Below are positions 10,180-61,578 of a DNA stretch of 64,000 nucleotides, one piece after another. Position numbers and translations under genes: made by a program. Source of the stretch: Chitinophagaceae bacterium (GTDB lineage Bacteria; Bacteroidota; Bacteroidia; Chitinophagales; Chitinophagaceae); NCBI GenBank assembly GCA_022843585.1, contig JALHNJ010000004.1, positions 165,869 to 229,868 on the forward strand, read 5' to 3'. How positions within the stretch are numbered: position 1 is the first letter of the stretch; each line of letters starts with the position of its first letter. The notes beneath the pieces were generated by a model. The model did not search any database. It was not told where the DNA came from and saw nothing but the letters and a program-made list of their open reading frames with translations.

Positions 10180-12012
10180 GTGCCAGATAAGATTACATTA
10201 TTACCAGATAACATCGCTAACCAGATCGCTGCGGGAGAAGTTATTCAACGACCAGCCAGTGCTATTAAAGAATTGCTGGAAAATGCGGTAGATGCCGGAG
10301 CAACAGAAATCAAACTCCTTATTAATGATGCAGGAAAAGCATTGATACAGGTTATTGATAATGGCAGTGGCATGAGTGAAACCGATGCCCGCATGAGTTT
10401 TGAACGACATGCTACTTCCAAAATAAAAAGTATTGAAGATTTATTTCATATAAGAACGATGGGCTTTAGAGGCGAAGCATTGGCTTCTATTGCAGCGGTG
10501 GCACAAGTAGAATTGAAAACGAAAAGGGCGGAAGACGAAACCGGTATTTATATAGAAGTAGAAAATAGTGCTGTAAAAAAGCAAGAACCTATTGCTGCAC
10601 CCGTTGGTACCAGTATTGCGATGAAGAATTTATTCTTCAATGTGCCGGCCCGCAGAAATTTCTTGAAAAGCAATGCTGCTGAAATGCGGCATATTGTAGA
10701 TGAGTTTACAAGAGTGGCGATGTCATTCCCGGAAATTCTGTTTACACTTACGGCTAACAACCAACAACTATTTCATTTAGAAGCCGGTAGTTTAAAGCAG
10801 CGTATCGTTCAATTACTCGGTAATAATTACAATGCAAAACTGGTAACGGTTAAAGAAGAAACCGATTACATGAACATCTATGGTTTTGTGGGCAAACCGG
10901 AAACAGCAAAGAAAACAAGAGGCGATCAATACTTCTTTGTAAACAACCGTTTTATTAAAAGCCCTTATCTCAATCATGCGGTGATGAGTGCTTACCAGGA
11001 AATGATCCCAACGGATAGTTTCCCGATGTATGTACTCTTCATCGATCTAGATCCGGCAGTGGTGGATGTAAATGTTCATCCTACCAAACAGGAAATAAAA
11101 TTTGAGGATGAAAAAATAATTTACGCCTTTGTGCAAGCTGCAGTGAAGCATGCATTGGCACAATTTAGCGTAACACCCACTTTGGATTTTGATCTGGATG
11201 CATCTATACAACAATTATCATCCATACAACAACCTTTTACAGAAGAAAGAAAATCAGCAGCTTCATCCGGTTCTATTTTTAAAGGATTTACACAAAAACA
11301 CCAGGCGCATTTTATTGAGAAGAGTGATAAGAATGAGTTGAAGCATTGGAGAGATTTCTATGAGAGTCAGGAGACAGGAGTCGGGAGACAGGAGTCAACA
11401 CTAAAGAGCGTAGATACACTCCCGACTCATGACTCAAGACTACAGACTGATGGGGAGTTAACCCAACTACTCAACACTTACATCACTCTTCCATCAGCCA
11501 ACGGCTTCCTTCTCATTCACCAGCAAGCGGCGCATGAAAGAGTATTGTATGAACTATTGAAGACAGCAAGTAAAGACAAACCAGTGGCTACGCAACGGAG
11601 TATGTTTCCATCTACGTTGGAGTTAACCCCATCTGATGCAGCGGTAATGCAAGAAATCATCGGCGATTTACAACAACTGGGTTATACGATTGAACCTTTT
11701 GGCAAAAACACATTTGTTATACAAGGCACACCGGCTGATGTGGAAGCTGGTAATGAAAAACACATCATTGATATTTTACTGGAGCAATACAAGCATTTCA
11801 GCAACGAAGTAAAATTTTCTAAAAGAGAAAAACTCATCCGTTCATTAGCAAGACAACAAGCTATTAAAACCGGTGTTCGATTAACAGAAAGAGAAATGCG
11901 CCAATTGGTGAATGATCTTTTTGCCTGCGAACAATCCAATGCCACAATGGATGGAAACCCAACTTACTTAGAATTCAAACAAGAACAGCTCGAAAAAATG
12001 TTTGGGAAATAA
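10180..12012 (+). CDS. mutL: DNA mismatch repair protein MutL
   Basis: 610 aa with a GTG start, placed because MutL begins right at PDKITLLPDNIANQIAAGE. The GHKL ATPase motifs are intact: ELLENAVDAGA (Asn at 35), DNGSGM (60-65), TMGFRGEAL (93-101). The transducer domain runs to ~340 with VNVHPTKQEIKF. The C-terminal dimerisation domain begins near 428. Two features are odd. Residues ~395-424 of the linker are the translation of a heptamer repeat tract. The motif that carries the endonuclease in many MutL proteins, DQHA(x)2E(x)4E, reads HQQAAHERVLYE (447-458), and no CPHGRP motif is present near the C terminus. ATPase and MutS-coupling functions should be normal; nicking activity is doubtful. 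Confidence 0.97.
   Translation: MPDKITLLPDNIANQIAAGEVIQRPASAIKELLENAVDAGATEIKLLINDAGKALIQVIDNGSGMSETDARMSFERHATSKIKSIEDLFHIRTMGFRGEALASIAAVAQVELKTKRAEDETGIYIEVENSAVKKQEPIAAPVGTSIAMKNLFFNVPARRNFLKSNAAEMRHIVDEFTRVAMSFPEILFTLTANNQQLFHLEAGSLKQRIVQLLGNNYNAKLVTVKEETDYMNIYGFVGKPETAKKTRGDQYFFVNNRFIKSPYLNHAVMSAYQEMIPTDSFPMYVLFIDLDPAVVDVNVHPTKQEIKFEDEKIIYAFVQAAVKHALAQFSVTPTLDFDLDASIQQLSSIQQPFTEERKSAASSGSIFKGFTQKHQAHFIEKSDKNELKHWRDFYESQETGVGRQESTLKSVDTLPTHDSRLQTDGELTQLLNTYITLPSANGFLLIHQQAAHERVLYELLKTASKDKPVATQRSMFPSTLELTPSDAAVMQEIIGDLQQLGYTIEPFGKNTFVIQGTPADVEAGNEKHIIDILLEQYKHFSNEVKFSKREKLIRSLARQQAIKTGVRLTEREMRQLVNDLFACEQSNATMDGNPTYLEFKQEQLEKMFGK
11364..11448 (+). repeat. Heptamer-periodic repeat inside mutL (two opposed arms)
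   Basis: The left arm is five consecutive 7-mers, 11364-11398: GAGTCAG, GAGACAG, GAGTCGG, GAGACAG, GAGTCAA. After a 22-base spacer the right arm has four 7-mers ending GACT, 11421-11448: CCCGACT, CATGACT, CAAGACT, ACAGACT. The arms are inverted with respect to each other (GAGTCGGGAG at 11378-11387 against CTCCCGACTC at 11419-11428). A 12-base exact direct repeat (GAGACAGGAGTC, 11371 and 11385) lies within the left arm. An 18-base word of the right arm recurs exactly at 14846-14863. Confidence 0.9.
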
Positions 12013-12025
12013 ATGAGCTTAGTGT

Positions 12026-12116
12026 TGTCTTGCCGAGGAACGAGGCATCTCAAAGTTTGGAAGTTAATAATTACAATAATCTCTGAGACTCCTCCTTCGT
12101 CGGAGTGACAAGACCC
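12026..12116. repeat. Imperfect inverted-repeat element between mutL and the PBP4 gene
   Basis: The left arm (about 12026-12052, GTCTTGCCGAGGAACGAGGC..TCTCA) and right arm (about 12083-12116, ending GGAGTGACAAGAC) are imperfect inverses with ends GTCTTG/CAAGAC. It looks like the small, non-coding, interspersed repeat type seen between genes in many Bacteroidota. It sits at the 3' ends of two convergent genes, where it may also act as a terminator. Confidence 0.6.
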
Positions 12117-12118
12117 CG

Positions 12119-13648
12119 TTAATAACGGTTTCTTACCCCCACTAAAAACTTCTCCACCGCTTTTCTTACATCTGTTGCAGATGCCTGGTGATTATTGACC
12201 AAAGTAGAAAAAATAAGCAGCTTACCTTTTTTAGTATATAAGAAACCGCTGAAGGCAACAACACCAGAGAGAGTTCCTGTTTTGCCGAAAATAAATCCGC
12301 TTTCAGTTTTATAGTAACTGCTGATCGTTCCTTCTCCGCCGGTTGGAAAAACAACTTTGATACGATCCATACCAAATTCATTCTTCATTTTGTTGAGGAT
12401 AGCGACAAAATCTTGTGGTGTAAATAAATTATAGCGGCTAAGCCCTGAACCATCCACCCATCTTGGTTTTTGTGGCAGGTCTTTAAAATCTGTTTTGAGA
12501 ATAGTATCGATAATTTTTGCATCATTCATTACTCCCAGTTTTTCATTACTTACCATTAATAAAGATTGCTCCGCAAAAAAATTATCGCTGCGGCGCATCA
12601 TGTGTTTTAGGAGGGAGTCGGTGGGTTGTGAGTGAATTTTATGCCACTGCTTTATTCGCAGCAGTTGAGTCCTACAATCAGGACATATAAAAGTAAATGA
12701 AGTGTCGTCCTTTCTTGGGCGAATCGAACCAAATCTATATTTAAACTTATCAGATATAATTTCCGCAGTTGCCAAATGGCTGTTCTTCCAAGGTCCTTTA
12801 GTATCGCTAGTAACAAAGGGAACAGAACTATTTACAAATTTTCTATTTGTTTCTTTAAGCCAAAAAGTATTTTCTGATAGGTTTCTTGTAATTTCTATCA
12901 TAGGCTGCTTATCTAATATTGCCTCTCTTGAAACCAAGTAAGTATTAGCATTAACTATTGCATCAAAATAACGACTCTGTGTTTTAAACATGTTTGGTCT
13001 ACTAGACTGAATGTCATTTGTATCCTTTATATTTCTTTCTGAAACTGTATTTAGTTTTATATCAATAACATTCCCATAAATTGGCATTGTGCTTCTTTCC
13101 GCCATATAAGATGCATCATAATCAGTCCATGACCAACCACTGCCCCAAGGATTTTCTTGCCAAATTGTATCAAGAATTCCAACTCGTTCGCTATAATTAT
13201 TTGCTTTTAATGATAAAAAGTCCCACACTGGTTGATTTTTAAAATCTTCATGCAATAATGTCGGATCTCCCGTTGGTTGGAGTACTAATACCATTTCAGA
13301 AGAATCTTTTGCTTCAGAAAATCCATACCTCAACCCCACCAAAATATCCCCCAAGTATTTCATCGCAGCATAGCAAGTAGGAATTTTAGTATTACTGGCA
13401 GGTACAAAATATTTATCGCCCTGGTAATTGTATAAATACTTGTTTGTTTCAGGATCAAAAATGCTGATGCCGACATGTGCTGTTTCCAATGCTTTTGCAT
13501 CCAGCACATCGGCTTTTGCAGATTTGGCGATTTGTTTTTCTATGGAACAAGAAGACAGAAGAATGATGAATGATAAATGATGAATGATGAATTGCTTAAT
13601 ACACCTAAATAATTTCGTCTTCCTTGTAATGCTGAATTCATACTTCAT
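12119..13648 (-). CDS. dacB: PBP4-type D-alanyl-D-alanine carboxypeptidase/endopeptidase (peptidase S13), lipoprotein
   Basis: About 509 aa. Penicillin-binding motifs are in order: SxxK in PASNTKIPT near the N terminus, SxN in MRRSDNFFAEQ, KTG in FGKTGTLSG near the C terminus. The long insertion between the first two motifs is typical of PBP4. The start at 13648 (MKYEF) is chosen because AGGA precedes it by six bases and it avoids overlapping the upstream gene. The N terminus ends in a lipobox (IILLSSC), so it should be membrane-anchored, trimming or opening peptidoglycan cross-links. The hydrophobic core of the signal (FIIHHLSFII) is encoded by a heptamer repeat. It follows the oxidoreductase gene by 10 bases. 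Confidence 0.92.
   Translation of the reverse strand: MKYEFSITRKTKLFRCIKQFIIHHLSFIILLSSCSIEKQIAKSAKADVLDAKALETAHVGISIFDPETNKYLYNYQGDKYFVPASNTKIPTCYAAMKYLGDILVGLRYGFSEAKDSSEMVLVLQPTGDPTLLHEDFKNQPVWDFLSLKANNYSERVGILDTIWQENPWGSGWSWTDYDASYMAERSTMPIYGNVIDIKLNTVSERNIKDTNDIQSSRPNMFKTQSRYFDAIVNANTYLVSREAILDKQPMIEITRNLSENTFWLKETNRKFVNSSVPFVTSDTKGPWKNSHLATAEIISDKFKYRFGSIRPRKDDTSFTFICPDCRTQLLRIKQWHKIHSQPTDSLLKHMMRRSDNFFAEQSLLMVSNEKLGVMNDAKIIDTILKTDFKDLPQKPRWVDGSGLSRYNLFTPQDFVAILNKMKNEFGMDRIKVVFPTGGEGTISSYYKTESGFIFGKTGTLSGVVAFSGFLYTKKGKLLIFSTLVNNHQASATDVRKAVEKFLVGVRNRY
13561..13588 (-). repeat. Heptamer repeat encoding the PBP4 signal-peptide core
   Basis: Plus-strand 7-mers GAATGAT, GAATGAT, AAATGAT, GAATGAT (13561-13588), then the diverged GAATTGC. 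Read on the minus strand (ATCATTC units) they encode most of the hydrophobic stretch before the lipobox of the PBP4-like protein. Confidence 0.85.
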
Positions 13649-13658
13649 AATTCCTAAA

Positions 13659-14708
13659 TTAAAATGTAACAATTTTGCCAGAAGCAGAACTCTCCAAAGC
13701 TGCTTCTATTATTCTTGTATTTTTTATTCCATCGGCAGCCGGAACAGGATTTGCACCTTGCCCTCTTAACGCTTTATATACATCATCATAATAGCCCATG
13801 TAGTTGCCGGGAGATGATGTTGTTTCTTTACGAACCACTTCGCCATTTATTTCTGTATGCAATAATCCATCAGGTGATGATGGACCGGGACACCAGGTTT
13901 CTAATGATGGTTTTACTCCGGCTAATAATTGTTGCTCCTGCATATCGGAACGTTGTTGTAAAAAACTTCCTTTCATTCCATGCAATACATATGCATAGGT
14001 TGATTCTCTTGCTATCACTGTTGCTTTCAATCGAACCCTTAGGCGATCATAATAAAAAAGCATTTCAAAATAATCCGGCACGGCTACATCATCCCGCATT
14101 TTTATCAGGTCAGCAAATAATGCATTGGGAAAACCAAACAATTGAATGGCCTGGTCAACCAGATGCGGAGACAGATCAAACAAATTTCCGGCACCGGGCA
14201 TGGCTCCTTCCTTATGTTGCTTGCCGCCAAATGCAGGCCGGTAGCGGTCATAACGAATTTCTACTTCTCGTATTTCGCCCAATAAATTTTGCTCCACTAC
14301 ATTTTTTACAGCACGGTAGTCACCATCATAACGGCGGTTTTGATACACACTTAAAAACAAATTATTTTTTTCTGCCAAAGCCGTTAATTCTTCTGCTTCT
14401 TTTACGGTAATAGCAAATGGTTTTTCAATAACCATATTTTTCCCCGACTGCAATACCAGCTTCGCTTGTTCAAAATGCAAATGTGTCGGGGTATTCACCA
14501 CTATCAACTCCAACTCTTTATCGGCGCACAACTCTTCTACCGAACGATACAATTTTGAATTCGGGTATCGTTCTCTCGAATCAGTATTGTTTCTTTCAAC
14601 AATCGCTGCTAACTCATATCCCGGATGTGCTTCGAGAAATGGTGCATGAAATAATTTACCGCTCATACCGAAGGAACAGATACCAGTTTTTATTTTTGAT
14701 TTCGACAT
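13659..14708 (-). CDS. Gfo/Idh/MocA-family NAD(P)-dependent oxidoreductase
   Basis: 349 aa. An N-terminal Rossmann domain begins IKTGICSFGMSGK (~5-17) and contains the family motif VIEKPF (~94-99). The C-terminal alpha/beta substrate domain includes GAGNLFDLSPHLVDQ, whose Asp and His match the usual catalytic positions, and YDRYRPAFGGK. The layout resembles the YdgJ/scyllo-inositol dehydrogenase branch, acting on a sugar or polyol, but the substrate cannot be named. It is cytosolic and lies 10 bases upstream of the PBP4 gene on the same strand. Confidence 0.88.
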   Translation of the reverse strand: MSKSKIKTGICSFGMSGKLFHAPFLEAHPGYELAAIVERNNTDSRERYPNSKLYRSVEELCADKELELIVVNTPTHLHFEQAKLVLQSGKNMVIEKPFAITVKEAEELTALAEKNNLFLSVYQNRRYDGDYRAVKNVVEQNLLGEIREVEIRYDRYRPAFGGKQHKEGAMPGAGNLFDLSPHLVDQAIQLFGFPNALFADLIKMRDDVAVPDYFEMLFYYDRLRVRLKATVIARESTYAYVLHGMKGSFLQQRSDMQEQQLLAGVKPSLETWCPGPSSPDGLLHTEINGEVVRKETTSSPGNYMGYYDDVYKALRGQGANPVPAADGIKNTRIIEAALESSASGKIVTF

Positions 14709-14722
14709 ATCGTATTTATGTT

Positions 14723-14884
14723 GAGTAATGAACAGAACGATGAAGAGTGATTAATTTATTCTCTTCCACCGGAAGAAAATAAATTAACAGACCTTTGGTC
14801 GCAACGAAGATGCCATGAAAAACTAAAGCCTGGTACATAACAATTGACTCAAGACTACAGACTATGAACTCTGAACTCCGAATT
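14723..14884 (+). repeat. Dispersed composite repeat, copy 1
   Basis: It begins GAGTAATGAACAGAACGATG (14723 on), then a near-perfect hairpin (14751-14767 with 14771-14787, loop ACC), a middle part with GGTCGCAACGAAGATG and TGGTACATAA, and a heptamer tract 14843-14884 (ATTGACT, CAAGACT, ACAGACT, ATGAACT, CTGAACT, CCGAATT). The order of parts matches copy 2 after pheS read in the opposite orientation. It fills the gap between two minus-strand genes. Confidence 0.75.
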
Positions 14885-14887
14885 GTC

Positions 14888-16021
14888 CTATCCTCTCTCC
14901 TGCGCCCTCAACCATCTCTCCGGTATTTCATTGCTACTGGCTAGTAAATAATCTTTGTAGCTGCAGGCAATAAATTTTTTATCCGGCAATTGCATCCACC
15001 AGCGACCAGTTTTCTTGCTTTGCAAAAAGATCGTATCCACTTCTGCAAAGGCCATATGATATTCGTTGAACGAATCTTTCTCATCCAACGTCGCTTCTCT
15101 CCTGCTTCGGCTGCGGCCATCCAACACATACCATAGCATATGACTGATCTGTTTCGCCGTCAGCTCATCTTTATCATGCTGCACATCGTAGCCATAAATA
15201 CCAATGCTGTTCACATTCGGACTCATACCAGCATATTGCATCAGCACACAAGCTTCTTCACCATTCAATCCATTTGGCGAAACGGTATTCGCCGGTGCAT
15301 AGGCATTGGCAATAGCCGTAATATCAAAGCTGAACATATTGCTGTTACGGATCACCGGTTCCATCTCATCTATATTCTCTTTTACACTGCCCACACGGTA
15401 GCAATCGAAACGTAGCTTATCCATTGTTTCCAACATTCGTGGATGCACATAGTAACTTTGAAAAGCAATATGATTATAATGACGAAGAAAATTCGGCTCT
15501 CCTGTCAGCATTTCCATTAAAAAATTTTCATGTTTGAATGGAGACTCCAAATTCAAATCAATTAATGCATCTACACAAGAGGCTTCAATTAATTTTTTAT
15601 TTTCTGCATACGCATTGTATTGCGTTAATGTCAGATCATGTGAGCCTCCCAAAATAATCACCGTCTTTCCATCGCCCATTAATTCCTGCACCACTGTTTT
15701 TAATGCGGCATACGAATCGGTATATAAAGAACCTACTTTAATATTACCTACATCAGCAATTTTTATATCCTGGTGCCAATAAAATAAGGAGTAAAAATGT
15801 CGGCGGATAATATCCGGTGCTTCGCTATGGCCATGTATCAATCCACTACCCCGCTGCTCTCCACATCCAACAATTACAATTTGTGCTTCATCCAGGTCAG
15901 GAAATTCTTCGCTGTACACATTGATTATTTTTCCCAATTGCCCATCTTTATATCCTTCGTCGTGGGATATTTCGTGGAGATTTACTGGAGAAAGGAAGTC
16001 CGAAATGTTTAGATGATCCAT
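14888..16021 (-). CDS. Arginase/formimidoylglutamase-fold protein with altered metal-site motifs
   Basis: 377 aa of the ureohydrolase fold. Recognisable segments are IVIVGCGEQRGSG, VIILGGSHDLTLTQY (motif 1, GGxH), FSFDITAIANAYAP (motif 3, normally SxDxDxxDP) and NSIGIYGYD. Classical enzymes bind two Mn ions with GGDH, DAHxD and SxDxDxxD. Here motif 2 reads DLNLE and motif 3 keeps only its first Asp, so most expected ligands are missing. Relatives in Bacteroidota are usually named formimidoylglutamase; whether this one is catalytic is open. It is transcribed divergently from pheS. Confidence 0.78.
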   Translation of the reverse strand: MDHLNISDFLSPVNLHEISHDEGYKDGQLGKIINVYSEEFPDLDEAQIVIVGCGEQRGSGLIHGHSEAPDIIRRHFYSLFYWHQDIKIADVGNIKVGSLYTDSYAALKTVVQELMGDGKTVIILGGSHDLTLTQYNAYAENKKLIEASCVDALIDLNLESPFKHENFLMEMLTGEPNFLRHYNHIAFQSYYVHPRMLETMDKLRFDCYRVGSVKENIDEMEPVIRNSNMFSFDITAIANAYAPANTVSPNGLNGEEACVLMQYAGMSPNVNSIGIYGYDVQHDKDELTAKQISHMLWYVLDGRSRSRREATLDEKDSFNEYHMAFAEVDTIFLQSKKTGRWWMQLPDKKFIACSYKDYLLASSNEIPERWLRAQERG

Positions 16022-16092
16022 ATCTACAAAGCTAAGGGTAAAGGAGAAAAAAGTGTGGTTTCACGCAGAGTTCGCCACTACTCTCCATTTCT

Positions 16093-17140: not shown

Positions 17141-17260
17141 GAGTCAGGAGTCGTTAGTCAGGAGTCTTGAGTCGGGCCGTTGAAATTTTATGTACCCAGC
17201 TGCATTGCTACTATCAACCCGGTTGCGTCGCACTCTTCATCGTTCTGTTCGCTACTCGAT
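17141..17260 (-). repeat. Dispersed composite repeat, copy 2
   Basis: It starts four bases after the pheS stop. Five 7-mers, 17141-17175 (GAGTCAG, GAGTCGT, TAGTCAG, GAGTCTT, GAGTCGG), are followed by TTATGTACCCAGCTGC, ATTGCTACTATCAAC and CTTCATCGTTCTGTTCGC. Read on the minus strand this gives the same order of parts as copy 1. It lies between convergent genes. Confidence 0.8.
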
Positions 17261-24657: not shown

Positions 24658-24800
24658 GTACTTATCTCTCCATCCTCTCCCTTGCTTATGCCGGTATCAA
24701 TTTAATACTCTAAGACTACCTTTAAATATTTCAACTTGACATTTAATGGAACTTGAATAATAACGAGAGCCTGCAAAATGCTGATACTTCGACAAGTTAA

Positions 24801-24860
24801 GTAGCGAACAGAGCGATGAAGTGTGCGACGCAAGGGACGATGCTAGTAGCAATTAGTTGG
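24801..24860 (+). repeat. Dispersed repeat, copy 3
   Basis: GTAGCGAACAGAGCGATGAAG, then TGTGCGACGCAAG and AGTAGCAATTAG, match the minus strand of copy 2 (17200-17256) in the same order. This copy lacks the heptamer tract. Confidence 0.75.
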
Positions 24861-24925: not shown

Positions 24926-25801
24926 ATGCTGAAATCAATGACAGGATTTGGAAGAGCCGAAAAAAATGTGGGTGATAAAACTTTTCTGGTGGATATAAAA
25001 TCACTCAACGGAAAACAGTTTGAATTGCAATTAAGGATTCCTTCGCTTTTAAAACCTTTTGAATTTGACATCCGCCGCTTACTTTCTGAACGCCTGAGCC
25101 GCGGTAGTGTGGATTGTAATATCAGCCTGAAAGATACAGGTAATGCCCGCCCGGTTACTATCAATACAGACCTGGCAAAAGCCTATTATAAACCCCTTTC
25201 GGAATTAGCTGCCGCCTTGAATCTTGATACTTCTACTATTTTAAGCACCTTGGTAAAACTTCCGGAAGTGATTACCCCGAGTAGCGATACTCTTTCAGAT
25301 GCCGAATGGCAAGATTTTCAATTGGTAGTATTGGAAGCCATCGACAACCTGAATACCCACCGCCTGAATGAAGGCAGCATGATGGAAAAAGATTTGTTGC
25401 TTCGTATTGATAATATATCCAAACTCCAGGAGGAAGTTATAAAGCTAGAACCGCTTCGGCAGCAAAAGATCCGGGAAGGCATCACCCGGCTGCTGGAAGA
25501 AAATGTAGGTAAGGAAAACTACGACAGCAACCGGCTTGAACAGGAACTTATATATTATATAGAAAAGATAGATATTACCGAAGAACAGGTGCGGTTGAAA
25601 AACCATTGTCACTACTTCTCCACCCTATTAGCTGATGCGGATGATGCGAAGGGGAAAAAGCTGTCTTTTATTCTACAGGAAATAGGAAGAGAAATAAACA
25701 CAACCGGTTCCAAAGCTTATGACTCCACCATTCAAAAAGCAGTAGTAATGATGAAAGATGAATTGGAGAAAGCGAAGGAGCAGGTGTTGAATGTATTGTA
25801 G
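24926..25801 (+). CDS. YicC-family endoribonuclease
   Basis: 291 aa of the YicC/YloC family. The N terminus MLKSMTGFGRA is the family signature; the C-terminal DUF1732 part has SFILQEIGREINTTGSKA. The family cleaves RNA and promotes turnover of some small RNAs in other bacteria. It is often next to gmk in Bacteroidota; here gmk is about 38 kb away. The stop overlaps the longest possible start of the following gldH frame. Confidence 0.93.
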   Translation: MLKSMTGFGRAEKNVGDKTFLVDIKSLNGKQFELQLRIPSLLKPFEFDIRRLLSERLSRGSVDCNISLKDTGNARPVTINTDLAKAYYKPLSELAAALNLDTSTILSTLVKLPEVITPSSDTLSDAEWQDFQLVVLEAIDNLNTHRLNEGSMMEKDLLLRIDNISKLQEEVIKLEPLRQQKIREGITRLLEENVGKENYDSNRLEQELIYYIEKIDITEEQVRLKNHCHYFSTLLADADDAKGKKLSFILQEIGREINTTGSKAYDSTIQKAVVMMKDELEKAKEQVLNVL

Positions 25802-25806
25802 GAAAG

Positions 25807-25841
25807 TTTCAAGTTTTGAGTTCCTGGTTTCGGGTTCTCCA
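25807..25841 (+). repeat. Heptamer repeat between yicC and gldH
   Basis: TTTCAAG, TTTTGAG, TTCCTGG, TTTCGGG, TTCTCCA, five consecutive degenerate 7-mers directly after the yicC stop. Confidence 0.75.
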
Positions 25842-25880
25842 AATCATTTCTTCTTAATTACATTTGTAAAAAATTATTCC

Positions 25881-26375
25881 TTGAAAACTTTTAGGAAAAT
25901 CTGCCTGTATTTGCTTGCAGCTTGTGGCTTGTGGCTTGCAGTTCTCTCCTGCGCCACTATTGACCTGTACGAAAAATCAGTTGCTATTCCCGGCCACGAT
26001 TGGCAAAATAGTTATCAACCCACTTTTACATTTACTATAAAAGACACCGCATCAGCTTACCAGGTCTTTTTAGTGTTGCGGCATAATGATAAGTACAACT
26101 TCAATAATATCTATTTAAATCTGCATACCAAACAACCCGGGCAAGATTCCGCACAAACAGCGAGATACGATCTCAAACTTGCAACAAATGAAAGTGGATG
26201 GCTGGCCAGTGGAATGGATGATATATATGAACACCGCATTGCATTAACTCCAACCGGGCGGGAATTCTATTTTAAAAAAACCGGTGATTATACTTTTACC
26301 ATAGAACAAATTATGCGGGAAAACCCATTGAAGAATGTATTGAATGTAGGTCTCCGTCTTGAAAAGAAACAATAA
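25881..26375 (+). CDS. gldH: Gliding motility lipoprotein GldH
   Basis: About 164 aa from a TTG start at 25881, chosen because it gives a compact lipoprotein signal (KTFRKICLYLLAACGLWLAV then LSC). An upstream ATG at 25791 would overlap yicC and place a non-signal segment and a heptamer tract in front. The mature part is a beta sandwich typical of GldH: DLYEKSVAIPGHDW, then IYLNLHT and FTIEQIMRENPLKNVLNVG. GldH is needed for gliding and for T9SS function in Flavobacterium, where it interacts with GldJ/GldK-type lipoproteins. Odd: the hydrophobic signal core is encoded by a 7-base repeat. Confidence 0.88.
   Translation: MKTFRKICLYLLAACGLWLAVLSCATIDLYEKSVAIPGHDWQNSYQPTFTFTIKDTASAYQVFLVLRHNDKYNFNNIYLNLHTKQPGQDSAQTARYDLKLATNESGWLASGMDDIYEHRIALTPTGREFYFKKTGDYTFTIEQIMRENPLKNVLNVGLRLEKKQ
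25913..25940 (+). repeat. Heptamer repeat encoding the GldH signal-peptide core
   Basis: GCTTGCA, GCTTGTG, GCTTGTG, GCTTGCA in exact succession, read as L-A-A-C-G-L-W-L-A in gldH. Two adjacent units are identical, so slippage is possible. Confidence 0.88.
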
Positions 26376-30737: not shown

Positions 30738-30762
30738 GAGGTAAAGTTAGATATCTTATTAA

Positions 30763-30864
30763 AATACGAAGTTAGAACTACGAAGTCTGCAATCCTAAAA
30801 GGTATTATCGCTTTGGGAGATCTCGTAATTCCTACCTAATACTTCTATTTCCAATTTCGTATTT
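30763..30864. repeat. Heptamer-periodic tracts in a divergent promoter region
   Basis: Left tract 30763-30790: AATACGA, AGTTAGA, ACTACGA, AGTCTGC. Right tract 30823-30864: TCGTAAT, TCCTACC, TAATACT, TCTATTT, CCAATTT, CGTATTT. The outer ends are inverted (AAAATACGAAGTT at 30761 against AATTTCGTATTTT at 30853). The right end carries the -7-like box TATTTTGC (30860-30867) four bases before the HAD start codon. Confidence 0.7.
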
Positions 30865-30871
30865 TGCAGAA

Positions 30872-31631: not shown

Positions 31632-32288
31632 TTACCAAGTCGCTATAACCGTCACACCACCCTTTGGCTTATCACCAATGTTCACCAAAATTTTTGCATC
31701 CAATGGCAATAGCAAATCAACCCTTGAGCCTAATTTAATAAAACCCATTTCATCGGTTTGATTTACTTGCTGACCGGGTTTGAGATAATTGCAAATACGT
31801 TTCGCCAATGCACCGGCAATTTGTTTTACCAATATTTCTTTTCCGTCTTTACGGTATACAACAGAATGACGTTCATTTTCTGTTGATGATTTTGGATGCC
31901 AGGCTACCAAATATTTTCCTTTGTGATACTGGCTATAGGCCACTTCACCGCTTACCGGATTACGGTTTACATGCACATTCAGCGGACTCATAAAAATGGA
32001 AACCTGCATGCGGCGGTCGGTAAAATATTCATCGGCTTGAACCTCTTCTATCACTACTACTTTGCCATCGGCAGGGGCAACGATTGCATTTTCCTGGATA
32101 GTTAATTGTCTTTTTGGTATGCGGAAGAAGGAAATAAGAAATAACAACAGGCCTAATGTGCCTATAAAGATCAACAGGCTTAAAATTGGAATAGAAGAAC
32201 TAAGAAAATAAAAAGAAAGCACATTGATGATACCGAAAAGTATGGTGGCAATTGCTATGCTGGTATATCCTTCTTTATGTATGGTCAT
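31632..32288 (-). CDS. psd: Phosphatidylserine decarboxylase-family proenzyme
   Basis: 218 aa from MTIHKEGY; a start seven codons upstream is possible, but TATATTTGCC, a good -7 box, lies just before it. Two N-terminal membrane helices (~10-50). The catalytic core has NAIVAPADGKV, VNRNPVSGEV and the self-cleavage site in FIKLGSRVDLLLP, where Gly-Ser replaces the LGST of proteobacterial enzymes; the Ser becomes the pyruvoyl group. It makes phosphatidylethanolamine. It follows cdsA on the same strand, giving a phospholipid operon. Confidence 0.92.
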   Translation of the reverse strand: MTIHKEGYTSIAIATILFGIINVLSFYFLSSSIPILSLLIFIGTLGLLLFLISFFRIPKRQLTIQENAIVAPADGKVVVIEEVQADEYFTDRRMQVSIFMSPLNVHVNRNPVSGEVAYSQYHKGKYLVAWHPKSSTENERHSVVYRKDGKEILVKQIAGALAKRICNYLKPGQQVNQTDEMGFIKLGSRVDLLLPLDAKILVNIGDKPKGGVTVIATW

Positions 32289-32326
32289 TGAGCCGTGGTT
32301 GAAGGGCAAATATAGGAAAATGGGGC

Positions 32327-32354
32327 TGGTGAATAGTCAATGGTGAATGGTGAA
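32327..32354 (-). repeat. Heptamer repeat between cdsA and psd
   Basis: TGGTGAA, TAGTCAA, TGGTGAA, TGGTGAA on the plus strand, in the 70-bp gap between the two genes. Confidence 0.75.
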
Positions 32355-32358
32355 TATC

Positions 32359-33255
32359 TTAACGCATAAATAGCTGAACATATAGCCAAACAAATGGAAC
32401 TGCTAAAAGCAATGAATCAAACCGGTCTAAAAAACCACCGTGACCGGGCATTAAGGAGCCGCTGTCTTTTACACCTGCTAATCGTTTCAGTTTTGATTCG
32501 AGTAAATCTCCTAGTGTACCGAAGATGGCAGCAATAGCAGCTATTGGAGCAAAAAGAATGAAAAAATTAGAATCAAAAGATTTCGTAAAAACAAAAGGAA
32601 ATAAAAAGCCAACTACAGTAACTGAAAGGATAATCCCACCAATTGTTCCTTCCCATGTCTTTTTGGGTGAAATTTTTGATAGTGGTGTTTTGCCAATAAA
32701 TGACCCAACGATATATGCCATAGTATCATTAATCCAGATACTGATAATAATAACCAATGATAGATATTTCCCGGCTATTACATACATAGTATCATGTAGA
32801 TGTATATCTAAAAAAATTGAATACAAATCCATCATCAACCCCCAACTCAATGAAATATAAATAAGGCCGAAAATTGAATGCCCGATATTTTTTAATTGAA
32901 TGTTTTTGGTGAAAAGCAATTCCGTTATCGGTAAAATAAATGCAATGATCAATCCGAGCCACCAGCCAATTTCATGCAGGCGCATTCCAAAAATCGTATA
33001 GGCATCGTTGCTGAACCAGAGCATCAAACACCAGCCGGCTATCATAACTCCATACTTATGAAAAGGGGTGATTTCTTTATAGCCGGGGTCAATTAGGGCA
33101 ACCAATTTCTGGTATTCGATCCAGCAACCAAAATGTATGATGGAAAATAAAATGAAAAAGCTCCAATGGTTCCATAATAAACCTACTAACATTACTGATG
33201 CAAAGATGATTGCAGTTAGTGATCTTGTTTTGAAGGTTTGAATATTGAAAGCCAT
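32359..33255 (-). CDS. cdsA: Phosphatidate cytidylyltransferase
   Basis: 298 aa integral membrane enzyme with about eight helices. The CdsA signature is complete: SKISPKKTWEGTIGG, then GDLLESKLKRLAGVKDSG and MPGHGGFLDRFDSLL. It makes CDP-diacylglycerol from phosphatidate and CTP. It is 12 bases after the CPBP protease gene and upstream of psd. Confidence 0.95.
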   Translation of the reverse strand: MAFNIQTFKTRSLTAIIFASVMLVGLLWNHWSFFILFSIIHFGCWIEYQKLVALIDPGYKEITPFHKYGVMIAGWCLMLWFSNDAYTIFGMRLHEIGWWLGLIIAFILPITELLFTKNIQLKNIGHSIFGLIYISLSWGLMMDLYSIFLDIHLHDTMYVIAGKYLSLVIIISIWINDTMAYIVGSFIGKTPLSKISPKKTWEGTIGGIILSVTVVGFLFPFVFTKSFDSNFFILFAPIAAIAAIFGTLGDLLESKLKRLAGVKDSGSLMPGHGGFLDRFDSLLLAVPFVWLYVQLFMR

Positions 33256-56035: not shown

Positions 56036-56254
56036 GGCAGTCAATTCTGAATCATGCCGTCAATGACAGCTTTTCTACGTTGCTAAAGTAGTCGTTTTGC
56101 CCCAAAAAATGACCGGTTTACTGTATAAAAGATGGCGAATCAGCTAAATAGAGGTATAAATGATTGATTTAAAAAATTGTGATCCCCACATAACAGGGTT
56201 CTTCATTGAGTTATTACGCAAAAACTCAATATAATGGTATCTGCAAAAGAGAGG

Positions 56255-56797
56255 TTAGCGAAGTGATATTTGTTTTGCAACGCCATCAAAAAATTGCTCT
56301 AACTCGGCAAACATATCCTTGAAGAGGGGAATAATAGTGGCAAAACCGTTAATAGCTTTCGGCCCCCAAGGTTGAACATATGAATAGGTAACAGATTTTT
56401 CAATCGTTTCTGGTTCAATTAAACTCATTTGCTCTGCATAGAAAAGCAGAACGCTAAATACAATTGTATAAATGATTGCGTACAAAAGGATACCGCCCAA
56501 CCTATTCAGCCAACCAAGCATTACCACTTCAATCGTACGTTCAATAGCATTGGCACCCAAGCGAATCAATAAAACGATAACTATAAAAACTACGGCAAAG
56601 GAAATAACCGGCAACCATTCTTCTGAAACTTTTACTGCTTCTCCAATATATTTTGCCACTACCGCTGAAAGTTTCATGGCTGCTGCTAAACCGATGATAA
56701 CAGCCACCAACGAGAACAATCCCACTATCAGCCCCCGCTGGTACCCTTTTAATAGGGCTAATACAATAACAACAGCAAAAATAAGATCAATAATCAT
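56255..56797 (-). CDS. CvpA-family membrane protein
   Basis: 180 aa. Four hydrophobic helices, beginning MIIDLIFAVVIVLALLKGYQRG, the CvpA signature, with GLFSLVAVIIGLAAAMKL next. Members are linked to colicin V export and envelope stress. No partners adjacent. Confidence 0.88.
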   Translation of the reverse strand: MIIDLIFAVVIVLALLKGYQRGLIVGLFSLVAVIIGLAAAMKLSAVVAKYIGEAVKVSEEWLPVISFAVVFIVIVLLIRLGANAIERTIEVVMLGWLNRLGGILLYAIIYTIVFSVLLFYAEQMSLIEPETIEKSVTYSYVQPWGPKAINGFATIIPLFKDMFAELEQFFDGVAKQISLR

Positions 56798-56900
56798 TGA
56801 CTACTTTAAAGTTTAAACGCCCCGGCTTTGTGTTTCGGATTTTGGAAATGCTAAAATCATCTTATTGTTTTAAACCCATTCTGAGATACTAAAACCGGAG

Positions 56901-57353
56901 TTACTTCGCCAGTAATTCTTTTACTAAACCGGAAATCATTTTCCCATCTGCTTTTCCGGCTAATTGCTTGGTAGCAGCGCCCATTACTTTTCCCATATCT
57001 GCAGGAGATGATGCCCCTGTTTCCGCAATGATTTTTGTAAGTACATCTTTTACTTCGTCAGCAGACATTTGCTTTGGCAAAAATTTTTCTATCACTGCAA
57101 TTTCTTCTTCTTCTTTTTTGGCTAACTCAGGTCTGTTTTGTTGTTGAAATATTTCGAGTGAATCTTTTCTGCTCTTCACTAATTTCTGCAACAATTTAAT
57201 TTCATCATCTTCAGAAATTTCCCCTTTAGCTCCTTCTGAAGTTTTTGAAATTATGATGGCGGCTTTAATGGCACGAAGGCTTCTAAGACCAGCTTCATCT
57301 TTTGCTAACATAGCTGTCTTTAATTCAGCCATTATTTTTTGTTCCAAAGACAT
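56901..57353 (-). CDS. GatB/YqeY-domain protein
   Basis: 150 aa. MSLEQKIMAELKTAMLAKDEAGLRSL, then FLPKQMSADEVKDVLTKII and GKVMGAATKQLAGKADGKMI, the YqeY motifs. Similar to the tail domain of the amidotransferase GatB. The role of free YqeY proteins is unclear. Confidence 0.92.
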   Translation of the reverse strand: MSLEQKIMAELKTAMLAKDEAGLRSLRAIKAAIIISKTSEGAKGEISEDDEIKLLQKLVKSRKDSLEIFQQQNRPELAKKEEEEIAVIEKFLPKQMSADEVKDVLTKIIAETGASSPADMGKVMGAATKQLAGKADGKMISGLVKELLAK

Positions 57354-57360
57354 ATGAAAT

Positions 57361-57395
57361 AGTTTATAGTTAGTAGTTTGTTGTTTATAGTTTTT
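57361..57395 (-). repeat. Heptamer repeat upstream of yqeY
   Basis: AGTTTAT, AGTTAGT, AGTTTGT, TGTTTAT, AGTTTTT on the plus strand, in the gap between gldC and the YqeY gene, starting seven bases before the latter's start codon. Confidence 0.8.
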
Positions 57396-57424
57396 CCAGA
57401 AAGTACAAAGAACTTTGCGAATTG

Positions 57425-57459
57425 GAACACTCCTGTCTCAAGACTAACGACTCCTAACT
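57425..57459 (-). repeat. Heptamer repeat at the gldC stop
   Basis: GAACACT, CCTGTCT, CAAGACT, AACGACT, CCTAACT, the same NNNGACT family as in mutL and the two composite repeats. It runs up to the gldC stop codon. Confidence 0.82.
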
Positions 57460-57809
57460 CAATCCGCTTTATTCTCTTTTAAATTCTTTGCTTTGAATTT
57501 TTCATAAAAGTCGTGGGCAAATTTCTTCATTTCTTCTACCTGCTCAGTGTATTTAGTGGCACGGCCATAGGTATCAGCCATTGTCATCATTGTTTGGAAA
57601 AAGAAGTCGGCCATTTCATCTACCATCATATCTTTTGTCCACAGGTCAATGCGCAGAGCTGCTTTATCTGCACTGTCCCAAAAAGAGATCATCATTGCCT
57701 TTGCCTTTTGTGCATGTTCCGCACTGGTATCCGAGGCACTCCAGGAAATAGAATCCGGAACCCGGTTTTCATCTGTTACTACATCGATCGTAATTGTTGA
57801 TTTATTCAT
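57459..57809 (-). CDS. gldC: Gliding motility protein GldC
   Basis: 116 aa, no signal peptide. Strand-rich start TITIDVVTDENRVPDSISW followed by LRIDLWTKDMMVDEMADFFFQTM, the conserved GldC core. Needed for full gliding in Flavobacterium, cytoplasmic. Its partner gldB is not in the window. Confidence 0.9.
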   Translation of the reverse strand: MNKSTITIDVVTDENRVPDSISWSASDTSAEHAQKAKAMMISFWDSADKAALRIDLWTKDMMVDEMADFFFQTMMTMADTYGRATKYTEQVEEMKKFAHDFYEKFKAKNLKENKAD

Positions 57810-57890
57810 AATCTATCTTCCTGCCGGAAGTGTTTTTAATTTAAAGGATGCAAAGATAGGAACACAGATGACACTGATTGGAGCAGATTA

Positions 57891-59024
57891 CTACCGACTA
57901 TTTTCTATCGCTTTTACAATTGATTGCCAGAGCAATGCCGCTGTTTTATCCCAATTATATTCTTCAGCGGTACTTCTTCCTTTTTCTATTAATTGGTTCC
58001 TCAAATTTTCATCTTTATACAACAACATCATTTTATCTGCAATATCGATGTGACTATGCGGATTAATATATAAAGCAGCATCTTTTGCTATTTCCTGCAT
58101 AGCAGAATTGGCAGAAGTAATAACGGGTACATTACATTTCATCGCTTCCAATACAGGCACACCAAAACCTTCAAAGAAAGACGGATATATAAGCCCATAT
58201 GCAGCTCCGGTAATTTTTACGAGTTCTACTTCATCAACATAACCTGTCATCACTACATCATCTCTATATTTATAAGACTTTAAACTTTCGGTAAATGATT
58301 CGTATTTCCAGGCAAGTCTTCCTGCCAATACCAACTTCATATTTGTCTTTTGCCTTTTTTTGAAAACAGAAAATGCTTTCAGCAAATTCATTAAATTTTT
58401 TCGGGGGTGAATTGCTCCAGTATATAGAAAATATTCCTTTCCATCCGTGTATTTATTTTTGATGAAACTTTTTTCTTCATCGCCGCATGGCTTAAAAAGG
58501 TCTTTGGCTGCACTAAATACTAGATCAATCTTATCCGGATCGATTTTGTACTGACTAATAATATCATTTTTTGAAAATGAAGAAACAGTGGCGATTGCTG
58601 CCGTCTTTTCCAAAAACTTAGGCGTATATTTTTTATAAAAGGATAAATGAGATTTTTTATGAAAAGAAGGATGATGTAGAAAAGCCAGGTCATGTATTAC
58701 CAAACATTGTGGCAATTTTGTTCTGAGGGAGCAAATTCCATCGCAGGATACAAATACATCAGCCTTATATTTTCGTAACAATGCCGGTATTTTTATATCG
58801 TACCAGTATTTCCAAAGCAAAGGTTGTTTTGATGCAGGTCCTGCTATTACCGCTTTTACATTTTTTTCAAATAAAAAAAGTTCTTCATACAGTCTGTCAA
58901 AAATAAAAACAAAAGAATGTTCCGGGTGGTTTCGCACAATTCTGCTGAAAGTCTCCTGTATAAAATACCCATATCCTTCCAGGTAATTTTTCAGTAAAAA
59001 TCTTGTGTTAACGGCAATTGTCAT
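57891..59024 (-). CDS. GT4-family glycosyltransferase
   Basis: 377 aa from MTIAVNTRFLLKNYLEGYG, chosen because a -7-like box TACCTTTGC lies 8 bases upstream; a start four codons upstream is also open. The donor site includes YTGAIHPRKNLMNLLKAF, VLAGRLAWKYE, GYVDEVELVKI and YPSFFEGFGVPVLEAM with the EX7E-type pattern. Probably adds a sugar to a surface glycan; acceptor unknown. Confidence 0.9.
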   Translation of the reverse strand: MTIAVNTRFLLKNYLEGYGYFIQETFSRIVRNHPEHSFVFIFDRLYEELFLFEKNVKAVIAGPASKQPLLWKYWYDIKIPALLRKYKADVFVSCDGICSLRTKLPQCLVIHDLAFLHHPSFHKKSHLSFYKKYTPKFLEKTAAIATVSSFSKNDIISQYKIDPDKIDLVFSAAKDLFKPCGDEEKSFIKNKYTDGKEYFLYTGAIHPRKNLMNLLKAFSVFKKRQKTNMKLVLAGRLAWKYESFTESLKSYKYRDDVVMTGYVDEVELVKITGAAYGLIYPSFFEGFGVPVLEAMKCNVPVITSANSAMQEIAKDAALYINPHSHIDIADKMMLLYKDENLRNQLIEKGRSTAEEYNWDKTAALLWQSIVKAIENSR

Positions 59025-59302
59025 CTGTATCTGCAAAGGTATTGGTTGCTATCGTTATTTTCTTAGTAAAACCACACAAGTATTCCTGTAAATAAAATAA
59101 ATATGCTTTGACATTTACCAATTTGTTTTACTAACCAGCCGCATCTTGTTTTGCATATCACTGCTGCAACTTATGCAAGAAGATTTGCTGTGGATATTCG
59201 TTTAATACGGTTTACAATATCGGGCAGTTGTACAATTGATTACGGCTGCTTCTTCATTTAATTTTATGATACCAATCTAGGTGAAAACCAAAACAGCATC
59301 CT

Positions 59303-60499
59303 ATGAAATATACTTATACAAAAGCTTTCTCATTTATTTTTTTTCTTTTAAGTTTTAATGCAAAGAGTTCTGCACAGTGTCCGATGGGCTATCCACCCGG
59401 CTCTACAGCGTTTGATACCACCATTGCTTTTCCTACCGGTACTACTTCCATTCCGGTAAAATTTCCGCAGTTTGATCCGGTTAATGGAATGGTAACTTGT
59501 GTTCGTTTATGTGTAACTATTACGGGCATTATTGACACACTGGCTATGCAGAACTATGCAGCCTCTTCGCAAACCGCCACATTTGTATATACAAGAAATG
59601 ATCAAATTACGGGGCCAGGTATTGGAACACCGTTATCCAATAGTGCTAATCTTACGTATGGACCTCCGGGCAATATATTAACCGCGTACGATGGTATACC
59701 TGGTGCCGGCACCGATTTTTATTCGATGGCAAATGACACTATTTTGAATGAAGAACTTTGCAGAACCATTAGTGATTCAGCAACCATTGTTCAGTTTTAT
59801 GGGCATGATAGTGTTACCTATAATTATGATATCAACGTATCAACCAATGCTACTATTACCGGTGGAAGCAGCAGCACCCTCGTACTTACTTCTGCATTGG
59901 TAAACTTTCATTTTGAATATTGTACCTGCCCTATTGTTACACTTCCATTAAGTATTCGCAATTTCTTTGTCACAAAAATATCAGATAATACAGCGGAGTT
60001 AAAATGGAGCGCTTTTGATGATTTGGAAACTAATTATAGATATGAAGTGGAGTTAAGCAAAGATGGTCGTAATTTTTTCAATATTGGACAAATAGCAAAA
60101 AACATGTCGGAAAACAGTAATGTTTATAAATTTATTTATACCGCATCACCATCGTATACCGGTGTTCATTTTTTTAGAATCAGGCAGGTTTATACAAACG
60201 GTTATTCCCGTTTTAGTGATATAAGAACTATTGATTTAAAAAATTCTCTTTATACTGGTTTCCACGTATATCCTAATCCATCAACTGGCATTATTGGTAT
60301 CAAATTTGATAATAATGAGAGCGGAAAAAAATTAGTTGAAGTTTATAATACACAAGGACAAAAAGTGATGCAGAAAGAACTGGTGGTTACAGGTTTATCC
60401 TATCATCAACTAGGTACTTTACAGCAAGGAACTTATTGGTTAAGGCTTACAGATGTAACGAGCAAATTGTCCCGTGTCAATCAACTTTTCATTAAATGA
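59303..60499 (+). CDS. Secreted protein with T9SS sorting domain (choice-of-anchor E-like)
   Basis: 398 aa. Signal peptide to SSAQ. The N-terminal ~200 residues form a beta domain (PVKFPQFDPVNGMVTCVRLC) reminiscent of choice-of-anchor E. A fibronectin-type III-like part follows (VTKISDNTAELKWSAFDDLE). The C terminus is a T9SS type A sorting domain: FHVYPNPSTGIIGIKF, LVEVYNTQGQKVMQKEL, GTYWLRLTDV. Surface-exposed or released. The 278 bases upstream hold only AT-rich promoter-like sequence. Confidence 0.85.
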   Translation: MKYTYTKAFSFIFFLLSFNAKSSAQCPMGYPPGSTAFDTTIAFPTGTTSIPVKFPQFDPVNGMVTCVRLCVTITGIIDTLAMQNYAASSQTATFVYTRNDQITGPGIGTPLSNSANLTYGPPGNILTAYDGIPGAGTDFYSMANDTILNEELCRTISDSATIVQFYGHDSVTYNYDINVSTNATITGGSSSTLVLTSALVNFHFEYCTCPIVTLPLSIRNFFVTKISDNTAELKWSAFDDLETNYRYEVELSKDGRNFFNIGQIAKNMSENSNVYKFIYTASPSYTGVHFFRIRQVYTNGYSRFSDIRTIDLKNSLYTGFHVYPNPSTGIIGIKFDNNESGKKLVEVYNTQGQKVMQKELVVTGLSYHQLGTLQQGTYWLRLTDVTSKLSRVNQLFIK

Positions 60500-60530
60500 C
60501 CTCTTAGGTGGAAGAGGATGGTGGCTTGTA

Positions 60531-60562
60531 AAAGGGGCCTTGGTTCGGGGCCCCTTTCTTTT
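60531..60562 (+). terminator. Terminator 1 after the T9SS cargo gene
   Basis: AAAGGGGCC (60531-60539) pairs with GGCCCCTTT (60549-60557), followed by CTTTT. Confidence 0.85.
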
Positions 60563-60590
60563 CCCTTCCAAACACCTTTAAAATAGCATA

Positions 60591-60621
60591 AACGTGGCCT
60601 TAAATAAGGCTACGTTTTTTT
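60591..60621 (+). terminator. Terminator 2, in tandem
   Basis: AACGTGGCCTT (60591-60601) pairs with AAGGCTACGTT (60606-60616), one G-U pair, followed by seven T. A second strong terminator within 60 bases of the first. Confidence 0.87.
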
Positions 60622-60660
60622 CTTTAACCTGGCGAAGTTGCAAACTCAGCAACTCTTCCC

Positions 60661-60668
60661 TACATTTG
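60661..60668 (+). promoter_or_regulatory. Putative -7 box of the DUF4290 gene
   Basis: TACATTTG ends five bases before the ATG at 60674, another near-leaderless arrangement. Confidence 0.5.
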
Positions 60669-60673
60669 TTGCA

Positions 60674-61387
60674 ATGGATTTAGAAAACATGGAGTATAAT
60701 ACGACTAGAAACCATCTGACGATGCGGGAATACGGCCGCCATGTACAGAAGATGGTGGAGCATATTATGACTATAGAAGACCCGGAACGCCGGCAAAGAA
60801 ATGCCCAGGCTGTTATTGAATTGATGGGGTTTTTAAACCCCCATTTAAAAAATGTGGAAGATTTCCGTCATAAACTTTGGGATCATCTTTTTTTGATCTC
60901 CGATTTTACGTTGGATGTAAAATCGCCTTACCCGATTCCCACAAGAGAATCGTTAAAAGCAAGACCTGATCCGCTTCCTTACCCCAAAAGACATCCAAGA
61001 TTTTCTCATCTGGGAAAAAATTTAGAAGTAATTATTGATAAAGCACTGAAAGAAGAAAATCCTGAGAAGAAATTGGGTTTTGCAAACGCAGTGGCTTATT
61101 ATATGAAGTTGGCATACAATAACTGGCACAAAGAAATTGTGCATGATGATGCAATACAAAGCGAACTATCCGTTATTACCAACGGCCAGTTAACTTTTAC
61201 CAATACGCCGTATGTAAAAGCTTTCCGTCCACAACAGGAAGGAAGAGACAACAGAAGCGGTGGCGGACGCAGGGATAACAGAGGCGGTGGTGGCGGACGC
61301 AGAGATAACAGAGGTGGCGGTGGTGGCGGACACCGTGACAACAGAGGCGGCGGCGGTGGCGGCAACTTCAAGAAGAAAAGATATTAG
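60674..61387 (+). CDS. DUF4290 protein with an RGG-rich disordered tail
   Basis: 237 aa from MDLENMEYNTTRNHLTMREYG. The first ~180 residues are a helical DUF4290 domain (EYGRHVQKMVEHIMTIEDPER, YPIPTRESLKARPDPLPYPKR). The last ~50 residues are low complexity with repeated RDNRGGGGG units and a basic KKKRY end. RGG boxes bind RNA in other proteins. The DNA of the tail (61250-61370) is a minisatellite-like repeat of GGTGGCGGACGCAGAGATAA-type units, GC-richer than its surroundings. Confidence 0.87.
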   Translation: MDLENMEYNTTRNHLTMREYGRHVQKMVEHIMTIEDPERRQRNAQAVIELMGFLNPHLKNVEDFRHKLWDHLFLISDFTLDVKSPYPIPTRESLKARPDPLPYPKRHPRFSHLGKNLEVIIDKALKEENPEKKLGFANAVAYYMKLAYNNWHKEIVHDDAIQSELSVITNGQLTFTNTPYVKAFRPQQEGRDNRSGGGRRDNRGGGGGRRDNRGGGGGGHRDNRGGGGGGNFKKKRY

Positions 61388-61522
61388 AACAGTTTTTAAA
61401 AAATAGCTAAATGGTTGATTAGGTTTTCTAGTCAACCATTTTTTATTGCTACAAGCTTTTAGTTTTACTTTGTAAACAAGTTAATTAGTCAGCTAGTTTA
61501 GTTTTTACTTGGGATTACTGAT

Positions 61523-61578
61523 TAACCAATACCCAATTAACTAATTTCTTAATTACCCCCATTAACTAATCAACCAAT
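61523..61578 (+). repeat. Degenerate heptamer tract upstream of murA
   Basis: TAACCAA, TACCCAA, TTAACTA, ATTTCTT, then TTAACTA, ATCAACC after a short break. It occupies the region immediately before the murA ATG (61582). Weaker periodicity than the other loci. Confidence 0.5.

Follow-up and report, generated by a model that had tools for sequence, protein, structure and literature searches.

What gives rise to the short, degenerate tandem repeats with a seven-base period that are scattered over a 64,000-nucleotide stretch of a Chitinophagaceae genome, and is the period itself real? This stretch (hereafter the window) spans positions 165869-229868 of contig 4 of a 4.49-Mb genome (4,485,540 bases), and an initial annotation had named 13 sites within it at which consecutive heptamers share a word. 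We find that the seven-base period is real in this genome. The tracts are probably degenerate heptanucleotide tandem repeats of the same kind as short tandemly repeated repetitive sequences (STRRs) and long simple sequence repeats (SSRs), which arise and keep their period through misalignment of the strands by one unit.

Periodicity was scored as self-match segments (+1 for a match, -1 for a mismatch) with the same scheme at each lag, and compared with order-3 Markov shuffles and, for coding sites, with codon-shuffled controls. At a score of at least 13, the window contains seven lag-7 segments and three lag-14 segments, while all other lags between 4 and 21 yield none and the shuffles predict only 0.1-0.2 segments at lag 7. 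At a score of at least 10, there are 14 lag-7 segments against 1.65 expected per 64 kb. Seven of the 13 named sites proved strong and two moderate, but the other four are no better than chance: there is no lag-7 segment at 30763, and period 7 does not rise above chance at 30823 (score 7), 57425 (score 6) and 61523 (score 8). The tracts and related features of the window are the following (gene names mutL, pheS, DacB-like [Peptidase_S13], yicC-like, yqeY-like and GldH-like are based on Pfam; ORF, open reading frame).

11364-11397, + strand: GAGTCAG-type heptamers, left arm, 4.9 units, lag-7 score 15, inside mutL
11418-11448, + strand: GACTC-type heptamers, right arm (reverse complement of the left word), score 14, named site 11421, same mutL linker
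13550-13592, no strand assigned: GAATGAT heptamers, score 26, named site 13561, within the DacB-like gene (12119-13672, - strand)
13628-13657, no strand assigned: AATTCAT, weaker inverted partner of the 13561 tract (18 nt, 83% complementary), score 11, overlooked at first
14846-14882, no strand assigned: GACTC/AACTC heptamers, score 16, named site 14843, between genes 13659-14708 (-) and 14888-16021 (-)
17141-17176, no strand assigned: GAGTC heptamers, lag-7 score 10 and lag-14 score 15 (moderate), starting 4 bases past the pheS stop (ORF end 17137)
25804-25836, no strand assigned: GTTTCAA-type heptamers, score 10 (moderate), named site 25807, directly past the stop of the yicC-like gene (24926-25801)
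25913-25938, + strand: GCTTGTG heptamers, score 15, in the N-terminal, lipoprotein-signal-like region of the GldH-like ORF (25791-26375)
30761-30865, no strand assigned: imperfect inverted repeat between divergent genes, arms 30761-30780 and 30846-30865 (20 nt, 85% complementary)
32327-32355, no strand assigned: TGGTGAA heptamers, score 14, between genes 31632-32309 (-) and 32359-33255 (-)
57359-57393, no strand assigned: ATAGTTT heptamers, score 16, named site 57361, immediately upstream of the start of the yqeY-like gene (56901-57353, -)

The period extends beyond the window. Over 649,868 of the 4,485,540 bases of the genome (14.5%), we counted 29 lag-7 segments against 1.0 expected, with one segment each at lags 5, 8 and 11, none at lag 10 and nine at lag 14; multiples of three are raised too, but less (six segments at lag 6 and seven at lag 9). 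Four of the first 20 sampled stretches had been picked for a GAGTC match, and a reduced sample without these stretches and without the window (505,868 bases) contains 14 lag-7 segments against 1.0 expected (five at lag 6, seven at lag 9 and one at lag 8), so tracts are more densely packed in the window than elsewhere. No lag-7 segment was found in 50 kb of E. coli K-12. The initial annotation's proposal of a genome-wide family of degenerate period-7 repeats is thus borne out, including the comparison on which it had been staked, as lag 7 clearly exceeds lags 5, 6 and 8 in this genome.

The tracts consist mostly of four to six units whose words drift, and their fixed core is contiguous in this genome. 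No single, near-exact word dominates: many words occur, in keeping with the idea that each locus has its own, but 9 of the 26 own tracts with a fixed four-base core contain ACT or AGT. Most tracts were expected to lie between genes, and 20 of the 32 own tracts with a score of at least 12 are indeed intergenic (16) or at gene edges (4), the remaining 12 being coding, although simple ORF calling, on which this placement relies, assigns 91% of the sequence to genes.

Similar tracts are widespread among relatives, of which the nearest named one, judged by MutL, is Chitinophagaceae bacterium IBVUCB2 (96% identical). In 80 relatives' loci around mutL (1.58 Mb, with drafts and metagenome-assembled genomes among the assemblies), we detected 124 lag-7 segments against one in a shuffle, and 44 of the 80 loci contain at least one. 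Lag 14 gives 77 segments and lag 8 gives 36, so that the period, which had been called strict and is so in the own genome, is joined in relatives by a period of eight. Densities per 100 kb are 4.5 in the own genome, 7.8 in these relatives, 5 in a 2-Mb genome of the genus and 31 in two other large genomes of the genus (80 kb, partly picked at pheS). Across the phylum, 20 genomes give 2.0 per 100 kb (seven lag-7 segments in 4 of the 20 loci, and nine at lag 6). Of 244 genomes of the family, 32 contain three consecutive GACTCNN units and 8 the reversed pattern. Four consecutive AGTCNNN units were found in 66 of the 296 genomes searched across the phylum, where, however, the reversed control frequently matches or exceeds them. 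One locus, L205 (G434:C3), carries at 7350-7850 a tandem repeat of ~146 nt whose units hold AGTCNNN tracts with differing spacers. In some genomes, period 8 replaces period 7, and a few of the arrays with this period are exact. Long and nearly exact period-8 arrays (CATCAGCA, ACATTAGC) are found in L046 (11952-13705) and L044 (11262-11505), and genome G378 has 11 period-8 segments in 145 kb.

Tracts also recur at fixed sites in proteins. The mutL coding sequence of the window (10180-12012, + strand) carries its two tracts in a linker flanked by two Pfam domains, DNA_mis_repair (residues 210-326) on one side and MutL_C (residues 427-568) on the other. Among 80 MutL linkers (81 sequences minus L061), 25 contain a lag-7 segment with a score of at least 11; there are none at lags 4-6, 8-13 or 15, 20 at lag 14, and 0.06 at lag 7 in codon-shuffled linkers. 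No lag-7 segment occurs in mutL outside the linker. The words vary (for example GAGTCAG, CAATCGG, AGATGAC and AACTCCA), and the frame has no internal stop in 80 of the 81 sequences, the stops of L061 coming from a duplicated 3' end past its complete frame. This 3' end of mutL is apparently repeated near 11800-12645 of that locus, downstream of the complete gene. Similarly, 17 of 56 distinct N-terminal (signal peptide) regions of DacB-like proteins have a lag-7 segment (0-3 at other lags, 16 at lag 14), as do 8 of 49 PheS linkers (at most one at other lags, five at lag 14). In the window, the GAATGAT tract looks, on the minus strand, as if it encodes the hydrophobic part of a lipoprotein-like signal peptide of a DacB-like D-Ala-D-Ala carboxypeptidase, the family being assigned by Pfam and the signal peptide by eye. 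At the MutL, DacB-like and PheS sites alike, words are not conserved between genera, as had been anticipated.

Turnover is fast. Of 12 own tracts (score of at least 12) with an orthologous interval in the relative G003 (~85% nucleotide identity to the own genome), only two keep a score of at least 11. Whole-unit length differences between close relatives were seen twice: at site 14846, G003 is one 7-nt unit shorter (TGAACTC, at 14865), and at site 25807, the relative G001 (87-91% identity) has a 7-nt gap. The word at the latter site is GTTTCAA in the own genome, GTTGCGA in G001 and GCTATTC in G003, in a single register as judged by eye (score 10 in the own genome, 8 in G003). At site 17141, GAGTC in the own genome corresponds to GAGTT-type words in G003 and G001. 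The GCTTGTG tract at 25913 is conserved in G001. In addition, a 21-nt palindrome is inserted at site 17141 in G003, and one lies within the tract at site 14846 in G001. When up to two mismatches are allowed, this palindrome (20-21 nt, CCTGCCTNNCGGNAGGCAGG) occurs at 28 places of the own genome, and several copies lie inside heptamer tracts, including those of G001 and G003 at sites 14846 and 17141 and one in the mutL linker of L032 (position 11194), where it is read as LPTGRQAG.

We consider misalignment the likely explanation of these features. Directly seen are the one-unit length difference between close species, rapid gain or loss, different words at one site and in one register, many inverted partner arms, and coding linkers that gain no net length. 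The replication machinery would misalign the strands by one seven-base unit, so that tracts arise and stay periodic, and these would settle where sequence may vary, namely in intergenic DNA, gene ends, protein linkers and signal-peptide cores. Units would be gained and lost, perhaps together with length-neutral copying between units; point mutation between misalignment events would account for the degeneracy. In coding sequence, the misalignment may often be transient, bases being copied from the adjacent unit before the strand realigns with no unit added, and inverted arms may come from template switching or hairpin-assisted copying. No cellular function would be needed. Simulated unit duplication and loss with point mutation matches the relatives, in which 127 of 663 mismatches fall in the best three columns (0.19, against 0.14-0.24 in simulations).

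Several observations weigh against this explanation. Variation in the own tracts is more concentrated, with 6 of 112 mismatches in the best three columns (0.05) against 0.14-0.17 when five units are simulated, a hint that slippage may not be the whole story. Genome-wide, substitutions are not biased towards the base 7 nt away, nor is there an excess of parallel substitutions at distance 7. The close relative G003 is poor in tracts (1.3 per 100 kb): over 374 kb, it has five lag-7 segments against 1.2 in shuffles, together with six at lag 6 and four at lag 9, so lag 7 is barely above shuffles in this genome and stands neither above lag 6 nor clearly above lag 9. In addition, reversed-flank controls for inverted arms (see below) are raised to 0.21 in relatives and 0.10 in other genomes of the genus, indicating that part of that signal reflects composition or simple sequence. 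Finally, all comparisons are between species, with one genome per species.

One possible but rather unlikely alternative is a separate copying process that works in register in steps of seven bases and would make and reword tracts without inserting units, even in protein genes. The length of the coding linkers speaks for it. PheS linkers measure 13-15 amino acids in 10 of 10 sequences with a tract (score of at least 9) and in 24 of 25 without (the 35 that fitted a stricter pattern), and the median MutL linker is 71 amino acids long with a tract and 73 without (p = 0.88). These coding tracts thus do not lengthen the protein, an absence of length gain that plain unit-by-unit expansion does not predict. 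Words differ among the 18 PheS linkers compared, and yet the 11 that start with K-x-F at the position compared share the same number of codons, the other seven having one codon fewer. Site 13561 provides a similar case outside these linkers: the own genome and G003 have GAATGAT, other heptamer words occur in G001 and G013, and the GAGTTAA-type tract of G001 aligns with that of the own genome at equal length and without gaps, the identical T-to-A change appearing in four units. Parallel same-column substitutions within tracts point the same way (10 against 4.4 expected), but the excess is modest and six of them lie in one tract. On the other side stand the negative genome-wide lag-7 tests, which imply that length-neutral copying, if real, is restricted to tracts, and the true 7-nt indel at 14865. 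Moreover, 21-nt in-frame unit changes offset by deletions, under selection on linker length, would give the same picture. A more specific proposal, which we regard as rather unlikely, is that in Chitinophagaceae length-neutral, in-register copying in steps of seven bases turns permissive DNA, the pheS and mutL linkers among it, into heptamer tracts and changes their word at a constant number of bases. The same evidence qualifies the initial description of the tracts as actively edited: words are swapped in register at fixed sites, but no editing machinery was seen and the genome-wide substitutions show no lag-7 bias. Fixed protein sites at which the word changes at constant length could separate unit gain and loss from length-neutral copying as the way in which periodicity spreads.

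A second alternative, which we regard as unlikely, is that the tracts are selected RNA or DNA hairpins (acting in termination, mRNA stability or structure). Selection would then hold period and pairing but let the word drift, the Nostoc trnL intron with its P6b stem being the model. The inverted pairing of many tracts and the location of the first pair inside mutL had both been overlooked initially. Defining a partner arm as a reverse complement within 130 nt of a tract with a local score of at least 11, we found one for nine of the 24 own tracts, a count that includes both arms of two pairs (0.03, 0.05 and 0 in shuffled, swapped and reversed controls). Tracts with a partner number 39 of 99 in 79 relatives (0.053 shuffled, 0.038 swapped) and, in the other genomes of the genus, 7 of 20 (0.01 shuffled, 0.10 swapped); direct copies near tracts amount to 0.05-0.13. 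Similarly, 11 of 30 MutL linkers (score of at least 10) have an inverted partner, against 0.75 expected. More than a third of tracts are thus paired, although this test detects no partner for most. In mutL, the 11364 tract pairs with 11419-11441 (83% complementary), and the RNA of 11360-11452 folds better than shuffles (z -3.96), as do 30757-30868 (z -3.13) and a pair downstream of pheS in G010 (z -5.21). However, of the nine folds computed (on eight stretches), five do not improve on shuffles and a further one, at z -2.12, is intermediate. The window has no match to any Rfam family at the gathering score, and the GACTC words are gone from the right mutL arm in G003. In the 79 relatives, with the mutL-adjacent region excluded, the intervals between convergent genes make up 17% of intergenic length but contain 20 of the 51 non-coding tracts; in the own genome, they contain 1 of 21.

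It is very improbable that the tracts are binding arrays, that is, rows of sites for a protein reading a core of 3-5 nt every seven bases. The contiguous fixed core of the own tracts would suit such a protein, as would the AGTC-type core with free NNN common to distant genomes (23 in the own genome and 58 in G378, against 0 in both controls). Nevertheless, cores vary among tracts of one genome and among species at one site, and tracts lie in coding linkers. Because the AGTC search itself fixes the core, it is unable to tell whether conservation lies in the core, and its reversed control is, phylum-wide, often as high. As for an artefact of composition, codon usage or assembly, drafts and metagenome-assembled genomes are among the data and lags 3, 6 and 9 carry the usual coding signal, but the Markov and codon-shuffled controls are near zero and the same pattern appears in many independent assemblies, which leaves this explanation hardly credible.

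Other repeats and unusual segments accompany the tracts. A dispersed repeat around GAGTARYGAACAGAACGATGAAGAGTG is present at 14723-14749 (+), 17231-17257 (-) and 24799-24825 (+), its wider family comprising 12 copies in 650 kb. A 17-nt hairpin (14751-14787, 94% complementary, 3-nt loop) comes after the copy at 14723. Segments 14705-14850 and 13530-13690 are nearly identical between the own genome and G003, the flanking genes being ~85% identical, and the former is nearly identical in G001 also; constraint or recent exchange may explain this near-identity. Past mutL, 75 nt (12044-12118) that resemble a dispersed repeat are present in G001 and not in G003. Finally, an in-frame 33-bp tandem repeat at 61259-61362 encodes a glycine/arginine-rich tail (RRDNRGGGG).

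How do these tracts compare with known systems? As far as our literature search reached, their breadth in Chitinophagaceae is unreported, as is the fact that they recur at the same sites of proteins without making these longer. To our knowledge, none of the five Bacteroidetes named as carriers of TAACTGA arrays belongs to the Chitinophagaceae. Heptanucleotide tandem repeats as such are already known from cyanobacteria, Xanthomonas, Beggiatoaceae and these five Bacteroidetes (MacGregor 2015, PMC4679880; Rehm 2015, PMC4692102; PMC4476775). The last case, in MacGregor 2015 (PMC4679880), contradicts the initial remark that no description was known for this phylum. Besides the phylum, it shares with our tracts the mixture of some arrays with other heptamers and an occasional absence from the corresponding intergenic region of a close relative, but the search described there was for one word only. 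The comparison with cyanobacterial heptamer repeats was apt: STRRs and long SSRs have the seven-base unit, the preference for intergenic DNA, positions near gene starts and stops, and noted inverted copies (PMC4679880, PMC4692102). Close Cyanothece strains differ by indels in 7-nt steps, and Xanthomonas has shared sites at which length and sequence vary (PMC4679880, PMC4692102). The best-described cases have a single dominant word, although Microcystis mixes heptamers, and their arrays extend to 26 to 43 units. The tracts here have 4-6 degenerate units and many words, and they occur repeatedly in coding linkers. Why seven is favoured has been the subject of a published guess, the length of DNA touching the polymerase (Mrazek 2007, as reported in PMC4679880 and PMC4692102).

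The mutL tract also recalls mismatch-repair switches, in which the copy number of tandem repeats within mutL could toggle repair. The Salmonella change is of 6 bp (PMC2955026), whereas the unit here is a degenerate heptamer and no switching was seen. Judging from the sequence, loss of one unit would frameshift a mismatch-repair gene, making the tract a possible mutator switch. The closest parallel to the rewording is found in the Nostoc trnL intron, whose P6b stems are built of Class I (TDNGATT) or Class II (NNTGAGT) heptanucleotides (PMC4476775). There, a single RNA site has a structural role, whereas our tracts occupy many unrelated sites in intergenic DNA and protein genes rather than a group I intron stem, and most are without a detected partner. 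Both systems nonetheless combine degenerate heptamers in complementary arms with repeated replacement of whole words at a fixed site, and the Class II core GAGT resembles the GAGTC found here (PMC4476775).

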